From an uncultured Bacteroidales bacterium (GTDB taxonomy: Bacteria; Bacteroidota; Bacteroidia; Bacteroidales; F082), in assembly GCA_946408345.1 (NCBI GenBank), contig CAMJRR010000004.1:1-64000 (forward strand): a stretch of 64,000 bases of DNA, in the 5' to 3' direction. Within the stretch, counting starts at the first letter, position 1; every line of letters begins with the position of its first letter. Positions 6,514 to 12,149 of the stretch are shown in pieces. Both the position numbers and the translations under genes were made by a program. The notes under the pieces are model-generated. The model was not told where the DNA came from. It saw only the letters and a list, made by a program, of their open reading frames with translations, and did not search any database.

Positions 6514-8352
6514 ATGGCAAACGAGAGACTTACAGAAGCTATAGTCCGTGACCACTTCAAAGAAGATCCTTTTATCAAATCGGTTAAATTTGAAGAACAA
6601 AAATCCGGTAATAAACGAATTCAAGAATTACTGAAAGGTCAATCAAAGGGAGGTGGTAAGGGTGATGGTTTTCCAGAATTTTTTATTTCATTTCCAACAA
6701 ATAGTAATTATATAATTGTAGTAGAATGTAAGGCAAAAACATCAAATCACGAATCGGAAAACCGTGACAAGCCCAAAGATTATGCAGTTGACGGCGTTTT
6801 GCACTATGCAAAAGCATTATCTGAAGGTTTTAATGTAGTTGCTATTGCCGTTAGTGGTGAAACTGAAGATGAAGCTGTCGTGTCTCATTTTTATTGGAAA
6901 AAAGGGGCCAAGAAATACTCTGAAACAATGGATAAAAAACTCTTGTCCATTGATGACTACCTGCAAATGTTCGAAGACCAGTTCTTTATCAGTGATTTTT
7001 ATACTCGTGATATTGCTTTTAAAGCGCGCTTCTTAAACGAAGAATTCCAAGCTTATACAATACCTGAATACAAGCGTTGTACTATGGTTAGCGCAATGCT
7101 TCTAGCTCTTATTGATAAAGGATTTAAAGAAGAGTATTTTGCCTTGGATTCAATTTCTAAACTCGGACAGAAAATGCTTGCCGCAATAGATTCTGTATTT
7201 GACGAGGAAGATGATATGGTTAGAAATAAAACTATTATTCTTCGTGAATTTGAGAGTATCTTAAATGAACCGCTTTTTGAACAAGAAAAGATAAAGCATA
7301 AAGACAAAAAGACCGATGAATCTACACTTGAAGTGGCAAAATATTTTATTAATTTTCTTGAACGAAATGTCTATCCACTAGTAGAACATTCTAATATTGG
7401 TTACGACGTTTTAGGTAGGTTTTATGTGGAGTTCATCAGATATGCAGCTAGTGAACAGAAATCAGGGCTCGTATTAACTCCTGCACATATTACTGAACTA
7501 TTTTGCGATCTTGCAGAGTTACGTATAAAAGATGTTGTCTACGACCCTTGTTGTGGTACGGGAGGATTCCTCGTTGCTGCCATGCAAAGGATGTTTAAGA
7601 TTGCGGGAGGTGATAAGAAACTGAGAGAAAAAATACGCAAGAAACAATTATGTGGCTGTGAACTACGTCCAGACATGTTCACTTATGCGTGTTCAAGTAT
7701 GAGATTCCGAGGAGATGGTAAGTCAAACTTGTATAATGGATCATGTTTTAACAATGCTCAAATCATTGCGGAGAACCATAAACCGACAGTGGCTTTTCTC
7801 AATCCTCCATACGATGTTGGTAATGCACGTCAAATGGAGTTTGTTGAACATGCTTTAAGGGTATTGGATGAGAAAGCAAATGGGAGAGTAGTTGCAATTG
7901 TTCAGTTTAGTTGTGCTATAAAGGACGAGAAAGACTTAAAAGCTGTCAAAAAGAGGATTTTGGAAAAGCATCATTTAAAAGCTGTATTAAGTATGCCTGA
8001 TGACCTTTTCTATCCGGTTGGAGTTGTGACTTGTATTATGATATTTGAAGCAAACAAGCCCAATAAAGGAAGAAAAACATGGTTTGGCTATTTCAAGGAT
8101 GATGGTTTTGAGAAAAGAAAACATCTTGGAAGAATCGACGCCCGAAACAAATATGCAACAATTCGGAATATGTGGATTGATGCATATAGAAATCAAGATA
8201 ATATACCTGGCATGTCTGTTCGTAGAGAAATAACATATAAAGACGAATGGTGTGCAGAGGCATATATGGAAACAGATTATAGCACATTGTGTGAAATGGA
8301 TTTTGTAAAAACAATGCAAGAGTATGCTGCATTTTTAGTCAAAAACGAATAA
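6514..8352 (+). CDS. BcgI-like type IIB restriction-modification subunit: N-terminal PD-(D/E)XK-like nuclease fused to N6-adenine methyltransferase
   Basis: N-terminal GFPEFFISFPTNSNYIIVVECKAK; MTase motif I DPCCGTGGFLVA and motif IV NPPYD; followed by a specificity subunit. Confidence 0.85.
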   Translation: MANERLTEAIVRDHFKEDPFIKSVKFEEQKSGNKRIQELLKGQSKGGGKGDGFPEFFISFPTNSNYIIVVECKAKTSNHESENRDKPKDYAVDGVLHYAKALSEGFNVVAIAVSGETEDEAVVSHFYWKKGAKKYSETMDKKLLSIDDYLQMFEDQFFISDFYTRDIAFKARFLNEEFQAYTIPEYKRCTMVSAMLLALIDKGFKEEYFALDSISKLGQKMLAAIDSVFDEEDDMVRNKTIILREFESILNEPLFEQEKIKHKDKKTDESTLEVAKYFINFLERNVYPLVEHSNIGYDVLGRFYVEFIRYAASEQKSGLVLTPAHITELFCDLAELRIKDVVYDPCCGTGGFLVAAMQRMFKIAGGDKKLREKIRKKQLCGCELRPDMFTYACSSMRFRGDGKSNLYNGSCFNNAQIIAENHKPTVAFLNPPYDVGNARQMEFVEHALRVLDEKANGRVVAIVQFSCAIKDEKDLKAVKKRILEKHHLKAVLSMPDDLFYPVGVVTCIMIFEANKPNKGRKTWFGYFKDDGFEKRKHLGRIDARNKYATIRNMWIDAYRNQDNIPGMSVRREITYKDEWCAEAYMETDYSTLCEMDFVKTMQEYAAFLVKNE

Positions 8353-8360
8353 GATAAAAT

Positions 8361-9458
8361 ATGGAAGTTTCAACATGGAAATTATTCAGGCTAAAAGACT
8401 ACTTAAGTAAGTCTCCGTATAAAGCAACAGCCTATAATGCACTTGACCTAATACAATGTGATAAAGATAATGATAATGCAATAGAATATGTGACTCGTAC
8501 TGATGAAAACAATGGATGTAAATGCTATGTTATTAACGAAGACTTTGATGATATTGAGCAGGGTAATGCAATAACTATCGGTGACACGACAGCAACTGTA
8601 TTTTATCATGAGAATAGATTTATTTGTGGTGATCATATTGTCGTTTTACGCTCGGATTATTTTAATAAATATGTCGGTCATTTTATTTCGACATTATTAA
8701 AAAAGGAATCATATCGTTATAACTATGGAAGGGCTTTTAATAAAAGGTTAATAGAAGAAACTATGATAAAACTCCCGGCAGACAAAAAGGGGCAGCCTGA
8801 CTGGATTTGGATTGAAAACTATATAAAAAAATCTCTTATTCTTAAATTACCTTCAAAAGCAAAATCTATATGGGAAGGGAGTTACGATATTTCATCTATA
8901 AATAGCGATAATTTATTATTTCAAGTTGAGAAATGGCAATGGTTCCGCTACGATGAAATTTTTGATATTTGCAAGGGCTTTTATAATAAGAAGCCCGAGA
9001 ATCATACTGGGAATAACATACCATTTATTGGAGCCATTGACAACAATAATGGTGTTTCGGAATACTATGATATTCAAGATATTGAAGAAGCAAGTAAGAC
9101 TGGGGACGAAAACAATGTACCATTAACTGAGAAACTCTTTGCAGGTAATTGTATAACCGTATCAAATAACGGTTCTGTTGGTTATGCATTTTATCAAGCG
9201 AAAACTTTTACATGTTCACATGATGTCAATCCTCTCTATTTGCATCATAAATGGAATCAGGAGTTAAATCAATACATTGCGATGTTCCTTTGTTCTTTGA
9301 TTGAAAAAGAACGATATAGATGGACATACGGAAGAAAATGGAGGCCTAAAAGGATGCCTTCATCACTTATAAAACTACCAGTAGATAAAACTGGCATTCC
9401 TGATTGGAAATATATGGAGGATTATATAAAAAGTTTGCCTTATTCAGCAAATATATAA
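8361..9458 (+). CDS. Restriction-modification specificity (S) subunit, BcgI B-like, two target recognition domains
   Basis: Duplicated half-repeats ending IKLPADKKGQPDWIWIENYIK and IKLPVDKTGIPDWKYMEDYIK; 8 bp downstream of the RM subunit. Confidence 0.85.
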   Translation: MEVSTWKLFRLKDYLSKSPYKATAYNALDLIQCDKDNDNAIEYVTRTDENNGCKCYVINEDFDDIEQGNAITIGDTTATVFYHENRFICGDHIVVLRSDYFNKYVGHFISTLLKKESYRYNYGRAFNKRLIEETMIKLPADKKGQPDWIWIENYIKKSLILKLPSKAKSIWEGSYDISSINSDNLLFQVEKWQWFRYDEIFDICKGFYNKKPENHTGNNIPFIGAIDNNNGVSEYYDIQDIEEASKTGDENNVPLTEKLFAGNCITVSNNGSVGYAFYQAKTFTCSHDVNPLYLHHKWNQELNQYIAMFLCSLIEKERYRWTYGRKWRPKRMPSSLIKLPVDKTGIPDWKYMEDYIKSLPYSANI

Positions 9459-9551: not shown

Positions 9552-10430
9552 CTAATAATCTACAGGAATGTTATCTTGAACTTGACGTAGTTTATTGACG
9601 TCAATGTTTTCGTAATTGTCATCGCCAACATTCAAGTGATATGCGTGAAATCCAAGTTGGGGCGTGTTTCCTTCGTTTTCGAAATAGATGAAACAACCGT
9701 TGTTTTCGTCATAATACCAAAGCGCAGAATCTTTGTCTTTACCTACAGCACAACAAAGCAATTGGTTGGTCTGTGCATCATTGGTCAATAACTGGGCCGC
9801 TGGATGTGTTCCATGATGGTCGGTTATGGTTTTGGCTTCATGGTAAGCATCGCCATGCTTGTCGGAATAATGATAAGTACGCTTCGGTTGTCTATATGCT
9901 GAAAGCCATTTGTGTAAAGAAGGGATGTCGCTCATTGCGGGTAGTAAAATACTTTCATGGCTGCTACTCTGCAAGATGACCTCGTTGTCAATAGTATCAA
10001 TGGCTTCATGATGAACCAACACACAAGAAATGCCTTTGGATTGGCACCAGGCCATATCGCCCAACATATCTGATGTGACATCATTGTGATAAAGTTTATA
10101 TGATACGTTCTTTTGTTCGTCAATCAAAGGACGTTCTGTCACACCAAATGCTGCAAATTGTGACAAAAATGTTTGCTCAATATTTGGATAACTTTCGGGA
10201 AGCAATGCTGATTGATATAGTAATCCTTCAAAATTGTCTATATCATAATAAGCGTTTTTTCGCTCATAGTGGAAAAAATCCAAAACATCAATCACGGAAT
10301 AGAACTCATCCTCTATAAATGAAATGGAGTCTAATGGGAAAGTGTCTCCATGAATATATTGATGAGATGGAAGCCTGGATTGATCAACATACTCCTTGAA
10401 TAACAAGTAAATGCTCGTTTGATTATTCAT
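9552..10430 (-). CDS. Hypothetical protein, 292 aa, third gene of the Cas2-like/AAA operon; no family recognised
   Basis: Start overlaps the stop of the AAA gene by 4 bp (ATGA), suggesting translational coupling; no recognised motif. Confidence 0.75.
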   Translation of the reverse strand: MNNQTSIYLLFKEYVDQSRLPSHQYIHGDTFPLDSISFIEDEFYSVIDVLDFFHYERKNAYYDIDNFEGLLYQSALLPESYPNIEQTFLSQFAAFGVTERPLIDEQKNVSYKLYHNDVTSDMLGDMAWCQSKGISCVLVHHEAIDTIDNEVILQSSSHESILLPAMSDIPSLHKWLSAYRQPKRTYHYSDKHGDAYHEAKTITDHHGTHPAAQLLTNDAQTNQLLCCAVGKDKDSALWYYDENNGCFIYFENEGNTPQLGFHAYHLNVGDDNYENIDVNKLRQVQDNIPVDY

Positions 10431-11587
10431 CGCCTTTCTCTATTGGAAGAATACAAGTCGCGAAGATCTGTGGCATATTGTTCAAAGAATTGTCGGGGAG
10501 GATTGAGGATGTGCCCTTCTTGCGTGACTTCAAGGTTTTGAACAGAAGACTCGTAATGCCCATCTTCTCCCTTATGTCCTGAAAAGAAAAGGACCTGCAT
10601 ATCTTTGGCCGAAAGATCAATGTCGCTATTCTTGACAGCAAGAAGCGAGGTATTCAAAATATGGTCGCTATGGGTCTCCACAAACACTTGAATTTTTTTC
10701 TTGATGGCATAATCAACGATAACATTCATCAGCTTTGCTTGAGCTGCAGGATGAAGGTGAGCTTCAGGATTCTCTATAATCAAAGCATCCTCTTCTTTGG
10801 CAATCACTAAAGCCGTTATTACTGACAAAATATATCCATGTCCATAACCAACATTGACAGGTTGAAACAAGACATCGTCTTTTGCCGAGTTGAGCGTAAA
10901 CACAAGTTCGTTTGCCATTGGCTCAATATGAAAAGATGAACCATCAAGTATGCCGTCCATAATACCTTCTACTTCGGTCAGAACTCCCTGATCACGATTG
11001 TTCCAAAGCACACTGAGTACATTTGAACCATTAGGAGTTAAATCAACAGCACTTTCGTCCATCGTTTCATGATATGGCGCGGTTTTGCGATCAGCAGCGA
11101 TATAATGAATACGACGTAAGGCAATAAGCGAAGGATAGTCGTTTAACTGTGAAAGACTTATGTCGAAATCCGAACTAAAATCAGAACTGAAATCGCCCAT
11201 TGTGTTTCCAGAGCTATCAAAAATAGATTTTCCATTGACTTTCGCATCTGATAATTCGATGAGTGTAGGCTTTAAGTTGCTGCGATCATATTTTAACCAA
11301 AATTCATTATCTCCTTCATTATCAGTAACGATATAAAACTCAATGGAAGTATCTGCATCATAAACATTATGGACATCAGCATATAATCCTAAATTCACCC
11401 ATTTTCCATTTGCGAGGAGAGAATTCATAGCTTCTTTATCCCATGTTTGGGATAAAGTGAGAAAAACTTGAAATAATGAGGATTTGCCACGTCCATTGGC
11501 ACCTGTTAGCAGATTTACCCTACCCAGTTCAAGCAATGGCGTTCGTCTTAGGCTTTTAAACCTCTCTATCTGTATTTTCTTGATCAT
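10427..11587 (-). CDS. AAA family ATPase (AAA_15/DUF3696-like, SMC/OLD-type)
   Basis: Walker A LLTGANGRGKSSLFQ, Walker B LIIENPEAHLHPAAQ, H-motif VETHSDHILN, C-terminal NPPRQFFEQYATDLRDL typical of the DUF3696 group. Confidence 0.88.
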   Translation of the reverse strand: MIKKIQIERFKSLRRTPLLELGRVNLLTGANGRGKSSLFQVFLTLSQTWDKEAMNSLLANGKWVNLGLYADVHNVYDADTSIEFYIVTDNEGDNEFWLKYDRSNLKPTLIELSDAKVNGKSIFDSSGNTMGDFSSDFSSDFDISLSQLNDYPSLIALRRIHYIAADRKTAPYHETMDESAVDLTPNGSNVLSVLWNNRDQGVLTEVEGIMDGILDGSSFHIEPMANELVFTLNSAKDDVLFQPVNVGYGHGYILSVITALVIAKEEDALIIENPEAHLHPAAQAKLMNVIVDYAIKKKIQVFVETHSDHILNTSLLAVKNSDIDLSAKDMQVLFFSGHKGEDGHYESSVQNLEVTQEGHILNPPRQFFEQYATDLRDLYSSNRERR

Positions 11588-11861
11588 TCCTATTAATTTT
11601 GAACCACTGCCAAAAAGCTTTGGGCATCCATCCTATCAATCTATTGTTTGAATGAATGGGCATTATTATTATCATATCTTTTTCGCTGTGTAAATGCTGC
11701 TTTAAGTTTTTAATCTCAACTTCTTCATCAAGGTCATTTGAAGACACAAACCAGATGTCATCCATTGGGTGTTGGAAACTACCAAGAGATTTGATATACT
11801 CCTTCAACTCTGTGTAATCATAGAGCCCCTCATTTATATTATATGCTATAAGATATACCAT
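11556..11861 (-). CDS. Cas2-fold / SinR-family small protein
   Basis: MVYLIAYNINEG..YTELKEYIKSLGSFQHPMDDIWFVSS....GWMPKAFWQWF resembles the SinR/Cas2-like ferredoxin-fold pattern. Start placed at internal Met15 of ORF 11556..11903 because a -7 element lies inside the longer ORF. Confidence 0.7.
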   Translation of the reverse strand: MVYLIAYNINEGLYDYTELKEYIKSLGSFQHPMDDIWFVSSNDLDEEVEIKNLKQHLHSEKDMIIIMPIHSNNRLIGWMPKAFWQWFKINRNDQENTDREV

Positions 11862-11883
11862 CGTAACGGTAATAATTTGTGTG

Positions 11884-11891
11884 CAAAGATA
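11884..11891 (-). promoter_or_regulatory. -7 element (TATCTTTG) for the Cas2-like/AAA operon
   Basis: TATCTTTG on the minus strand about 22 bp upstream of the ATG at 11861. Confidence 0.5.
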
Positions 11892-12102
11892 CTTTTTTTC
11901 CATTCATAAATGGTTTTCATTTTGAATATTTTCAAAAAAACAGCCCCACACCAAAGAAAAACCCCTATCATTGTCCCACTATTCAACCCCATAACGACGA
12001 CAGTCTACCCTACCTTCACATCTTCAGCGTTGCATTTTTGAAGTAAATAGACTTCGGACACACTAGTTGAAACACTACCAAAAAATCCTAAATAAAATCA
12101 AC

Positions 12103-12149
12103 TTTATTCCGCTACGAAATGCGATTTTTTGATTTCGTAGCGGAATAAA
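12103..12149. repeat. Perfect 18-bp inverted repeat with 11-nt loop
   Basis: tttattccgctacgaaat-gcgattttttg-atttcgtagcggaataaa between xylA and the defence-like operon. Confidence 0.9.

Follow-up and report, generated by a model that had tools for sequence, protein, structure and literature searches.

Organization of the Locus

The stretch of DNA analysed here (hereafter, the window) is 64,000 nucleotides long and comes from an uncultured Bacteroidales bacterium. Three ORFs lie on its minus strand, at 11556-11903, 10427-11587, and 9552-10430, and their layout confirms an operon: the first and second genes overlap by 32 bp (11556-11587) and the second and third by 4 bp, in an ATGA (10427-10430), just as an earlier note on this DNA had described. 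The features of the locus are the following:

6514-8352, plus strand: type IIG-like REase/MTase (N6_Mtase), a neighbouring defense gene (PADLOC E 1.2e-96, Pfam PF02384)
8361-9458, plus strand: specificity subunit, a neighbouring defense gene (Pfam PF01420 E 8e-22, PADLOC Specificity_II)
9552-10430, minus strand: nsnC, 292 aa, with a shared N-terminal half and a swappable C-terminal domain, about residues 170-292 (PADLOC)
10427-11587, minus strand: nsnB, DUF3696/AAA_15/21 ABC-type ATPase, 386 aa (PADLOC and Pfam)
11556-11861, minus strand: gene in the nsnA slot, encoding a 101-aa Cas2-fold (SinR-like) protein (AlphaFold2 and Foldseek; start reassigned)
11884-11891, minus strand: Bacteroidetes -7 promoter element TATCTTTG (TAnnTTTG), position read from the window sequence

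Among the ORFs around the locus, restriction-modification and xylose genes adjoin the operon. The former are convergent with it, at a distance of 93 bp, and their matches to the PADLOC type IIG REase/MTase and type II specificity models bear out the convergent restriction-modification system proposed in the earlier note. The G+C content is 38% in the operon and 35% in the restriction-modification genes, versus 56% in the adjoining xylA and 47% in the window as a whole; the low G+C of the operon and its restriction-modification neighbours is compatible with acquired defense genes. When xylA flanks were compared in search of an empty site, xylA was detectable in none of 12 same-genus relatives. 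Between xylA and the operon lies a perfect 18-bp inverted repeat (ATTTCGTAGCGGAATAAA, window 12103-12149), a single site in the genome and probably a terminator.

The -7 element that had been said to precede the operon does exist, but it falls within the first ORF as originally drawn (start at 11903); because of this position inside the longer ORF, we moved the start to the ATG at 11861, which is most likely the true one and gives a protein of 101 aa with a 22-nt spacing to the -7 box. Close homologues of the protein start at the same Met, and in a related locus (L039) a -7 box likewise lies between an upstream ATG and the equivalent start Met. A TAnnTTTG box is found at most 100 nt 5' of the homologous gene in 15 of the 16 relatives presented below, as compared with 0/16 for NsnB, 1/16 for NsnC, and 5.3% of random windows; the first gene is, therefore, the promoter-proximal gene of the operon.

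The Second and Third Genes Are NsnB and NsnC

The earlier note had taken the three genes for a candidate defense operon without recognizing a named system. The defense assignment is supported, and a name can now be given, as the second and third genes match the PADLOC models for NsnB and NsnC of Menshen. This system (NsnABC) was reportedly described by Millman et al. in 2022.

The ATPase matches NsnB over nearly its full length (247 bits, E 1e-73) and is the sole NsnB match in its own genome. Pfam AAA_21, AAA_15, and DUF3696 are all above their gathering cut-offs, in agreement with the DUF3696 AAA ATPase proposed beforehand, and the motifs are intact (Walker A GANGRGKSS, ENPEAHLHP, and ETHSDHI).

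The 292-aa protein, whose gene directly follows nsnB through the ATGA overlap, matches NsnC with an E of 1.9e-24. We cut 70 NsnC proteins into halves and found that the N-terminal halves form one cluster (67/70) and the C-terminal halves seven, a contrast seen at E 1e-2 to 1e-3 when the cut is placed near the middle, but less marked when the cut-off is made stricter or the N-terminal part shorter. One C-terminal type, in the NsnC of L106 (3297-4151), is a YoeB toxin above the Pfam cut-off (residues 203-282 of 285), and the C-terminal half of the L061 protein matches the C-terminal portion of a model for a CARF_DUF2103 protein. With a shared N-terminal half and a C-terminal half that swaps among at least seven types, one of them YoeB, NsnC looks like an effector.

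The window NsnC carries the C-terminal type C1, with invariant W175, H192, D241, and H262 and a near-invariant H265. Its AlphaFold2 model is confident (pLDDT 89.7), yet a fold search against PDB and BFVD returned no match, and neither did a sequence search against PDB and Pfam. Because neither profile nor fold comparisons link this C-terminal domain to a known toxin, we infer its activity by analogy with the sister NsnC proteins, and it may be a toxin of the RNase or nuclease type. Viral contigs scanned with the NsnC alignment contained no relatives, as was the case when they were scanned with the first or the second protein as a single-protein query.

A Cas2-Fold Protein in the NsnA Slot

The first gene is where the operon departs from Menshen. 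The AlphaFold2 model of its product, built from a 17-sequence alignment, has a pLDDT of 91.1 and a beta-alpha-beta-beta-alpha-beta topology, and its top Foldseek matches in PDB are nearly all Cas2 (probability about 1.00, query TM 0.45-0.56, best E 2e-3), which upholds the Cas2-fold/SinR-like protein of the earlier note; GhoS (2llz) also appears in the list, at rank 45 with a probability of 0.95. The protein thus shares the fold of the Cas2/VapD/GhoS family. It differs from CRISPR-associated Cas2 in carrying Asn8 at the position of the catalytic Asp and in matching Cas2 profiles weakly, if consistently: the Pfam Cas2 profile matches 6 of the 17 members (best 5.5e-4), and a single PADLOC Cas2 model matches at most 8 of the 17 (best 2.2e-5 across all Cas2 models). 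The PADLOC NsnA models gave no match to the window protein at E up to 10 and none to its 16 relatives.

In a profile alignment to solved Cas2, it is the Asp of "LITYD" that aligns with Asn8. Since this column varies among the 17 members, window included (D 8, N 5, S 2, E 2), conserved Cas2-type catalysis is unlikely; the protein may still bind nucleic acid.

Within the order, just 8 of 393 genomes contain a detectable homologue of the first protein. No sign of cas1 or CRISPR was seen among the neighbouring genes that were read. In the window's own genome, no Cas2 is found above the Pfam cut-off, and three DUF262 genes lie on other contigs. Elsewhere, standalone homologues occur in two-gene layouts, directly 3' of PIN_8, HEPN, or membrane-anchored proteins. 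Examples are L020 (1471-2909), L122 (1495-2492), and L021, L022, L121, L123, and L124, where a SinR-like gene lies 3' of a PIN_8, HEPN_RiboL-PSP, or membrane-anchored protein, possibly as a general toxin-antitoxin-like or defense pairing. Plasmid homologues were considered as Menshen members and rejected, those inspected being standalone genes. On Rhodobacterales plasmids (L018 75-5516, L016 3073-5517), a DUF2188 gene comes after the Cas2-like gene, which is itself divergent from an ImmA/IrrE-containing trio.

Recurrence of the Cas2-Type Arrangement

GTDB genomes were scanned with an NsnB alignment, and the 80 loci closest to the window were kept. In 16 of them, a figure that is not a frequency as the ranking favours window-like loci, a Cas2-like gene of about 90 aa directly precedes NsnB, with no DUF262 match in the fetched flanks. 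A DUF262-type gene without a Cas2-like gene was found in 61 loci and neither type in three (L046, L084, and L099), so that the two NsnA types exclude each other in 77 of 80 loci; it should be kept in mind that both profile models were built from the same loci that were counted, that the DUF262 model included one wrong sequence (a poly-A polymerase from L084), and that some flanks are short where contigs end. Two sister Cytophagales loci, L084 (6001-8078) and L099 (6001-8101), carry NsnB-NsnC without a recognizable NsnA, next to a poly-A polymerase and a histidine kinase, and are perhaps two-gene Menshen systems.

In the 16 Cas2-type relatives, the genes follow one another as they do in the window, the first and second being separated by -8 to +16 bp, and all 16 are MAGs of Bacteroidota, for the most part Bacteroidales from gut and rumen. 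The co-occurrence implied by the earlier note is, thus, found in at least 16 other genomes, and since the same order and tight junctions recur there, the gene arrangement is beyond chance. On the NsnB tree, the Cas2 type is clustered, with two changes versus a shuffled mean of 15.7 (0/500 shuffles as low); a single clade of Cas2-type loci is not rejected (p-AU 0.43), even though the tree gives two changes.

Cas2-type operons carry the NsnC C-terminal types C0, C1, and C3, each of which also occurs without the Cas2-like gene; the occupant of the NsnA slot, therefore, varies independently of the NsnC toxin type. In L039, an N-terminally truncated NsnC (7137-7560), probably a decayed copy, lies beside an intact Cas2-like gene and NsnB.

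Relation to Known Systems

Menshen has been summarized as a DUF262 gene plus a predicted OLD nuclease (Mariano and Blower, PMC10952713), and a 2026 review (PMC12926258) gives its mechanism as unknown. The canonical order of DUF262, DUF3696 ATPase, and NsnC is seen in L007, L011, and L012 (in the stretch fetched for L007, the first gene is represented by its C-terminal part alone), and two sister loci match PADLOC NsnA directly, at 7.5e-115 and 1.3e-108. In the window, as in these systems, the NsnB ATPase is followed by NsnC with the same style of overlap and in the same kind of defense-gene setting, but the first gene encodes a 101-aa Cas2-fold protein in place of a DUF262 NsnA of about 370 aa. 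No DUF262 NsnA lies directly before NsnB in the window, and the operon is, therefore, a variant of Menshen and not a canonical member; that it is a distinct Cas2-type subtype is well supported. The earlier note had allowed for the trio matching a known system, which is true of two-thirds of it, NsnB and NsnC, whereas the first gene differs.

Other systems come less close. PARIS (AriA), Gabija (GajA), and other AAA_15/OLD systems have a related ATPase fold but weaker profile matches, NsnB fitting the window ATPase far better (1e-73 versus 6.5e-23 for AriA and 1.8e-15 for GajA); we rejected an identity with PARIS, which would call for AriB, or with Gabija, which would call for a GajA with a Toprim domain and the helicase GajB, as the best profile is NsnB, the third gene is NsnC, and no helicase gene is present among the ORFs around the locus. 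The DUF262 NsnA found in the sister loci is similar to the model for the A subunit of PD-T4-2, but the window has no DUF262 protein beside NsnB.

Our literature search found no description of a Cas2-like first gene in Menshen. The work of Li et al. 2025 on domain polymorphism in Menshen lay outside that search and may already include a Cas2-like NsnA; with this reservation, the Cas2-type operon would be a new variant.

Proposed Mechanism and Alternatives

The mechanism that we infer, and hold to be probable with some reserve, is a division of labour with the Cas2-like protein as sensor or restraint, NsnB as the gate, and NsnC as the effector that kills or stalls the cell. In the first-gene position, the small Cas2-fold protein would have taken the place of the DUF262 NsnA; it would bind altered nucleic acid or nucleic acid of phage origin, probably in dimeric form and with no need of Cas2-type catalysis, and would act as the sensor or restraint. 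The NsnB ATPase would then pass the signal on through an ATP-driven conformational change to NsnC, whose N-terminal half would dock to the common core and whose C-terminal domain would be the exchangeable toxin, in this operon probably of the RNase or nuclease type, by which the infected cell is stalled or killed. The role given to the Cas2-like protein is suggested by its non-conserved catalytic Asp and its promiscuous partners: as the fold is found with many effector partners (PIN_8, HEPN, and membrane-anchored proteins), a sensor or restraint fits better than a dedicated effector.

A restraint could also be antitoxin-like, with the Cas2-like protein disarming NsnC or the NsnB-NsnC complex, as GhoS does GhoT, at the level of protein or mRNA, until phage infection removes it and releases NsnC. 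GhoS is indeed among the Foldseek matches of the first protein, and the standalone homologues do sit directly 3' of PIN_8, HEPN, and membrane-anchored proteins; however, the Cas2-like gene is the second of these pairs but the first of the window operon, NsnC is apparently tolerated without a recognizable NsnA in L084 and L099, and the DUF262 NsnA, which takes this slot elsewhere, is not known to be an antitoxin. We consider this reading unlikely. The option in the earlier note's model that the Cas2-like protein is itself a nuclease effector gated by the ATPase would agree with its Cas2 fold and with the nuclease activity of some Cas2 and VapD proteins. DUF262, the occupant of this slot in other loci, belongs to a family with NTPase and nuclease-regulating members (PMC10952713), which also speaks for it. 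Yet the catalytic Asp is an Asn in the window and is not kept in 9 of the 17 members, and the exchangeable toxin-like domain, with the anatomy of an effector, sits in NsnC, which makes a nuclease effector in the first position quite improbable.

Finally, the Cas2-like gene could be a chance neighbour, the result of some unrelated SinR-like gene having inserted ahead of a Menshen operon from which NsnA had been lost. SinR-like proteins do occur as standalone genes, and the genome does hold three DUF262 genes on other contigs, but 16 other loci have the two genes side by side, tightly joined and with the promoter 5' of the Cas2-like gene, and the scarcity of detectable homologues in the order (8/393 genomes) also argues against it. 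A one-off insertion is refuted by this recurrence, and chance neighbourhood in general is the most improbable of the readings, by far.

Starting from the sensor-or-restraint reading, a wider proposal can be put forward tentatively, as we give it somewhat less than even weight: the NsnA slot may be a truly exchangeable module, in which DUF262 and a catalytically degenerate Cas2, two unrelated folds, would be alternative sensors or restraints for one ATPase that fires an independently exchangeable toxin. Cas2-fold proteins would, in that case, be all-purpose sensors or restraints outside CRISPR, with HEPN, PIN, and membrane effectors among their other partners.

Implications for Menshen

The current defense-gene models recognize Cas2-type Menshen only partly, and in gut Bacteroidales the subtype would escape any search that makes a DUF262 NsnA a requirement. 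The natural swap of one part of Menshen, with the other two kept, offers a clean way to tell the sensing part from the killing part, and Cas2-type Menshen suggests that the Cas2 fold has a use in defense outside CRISPR.
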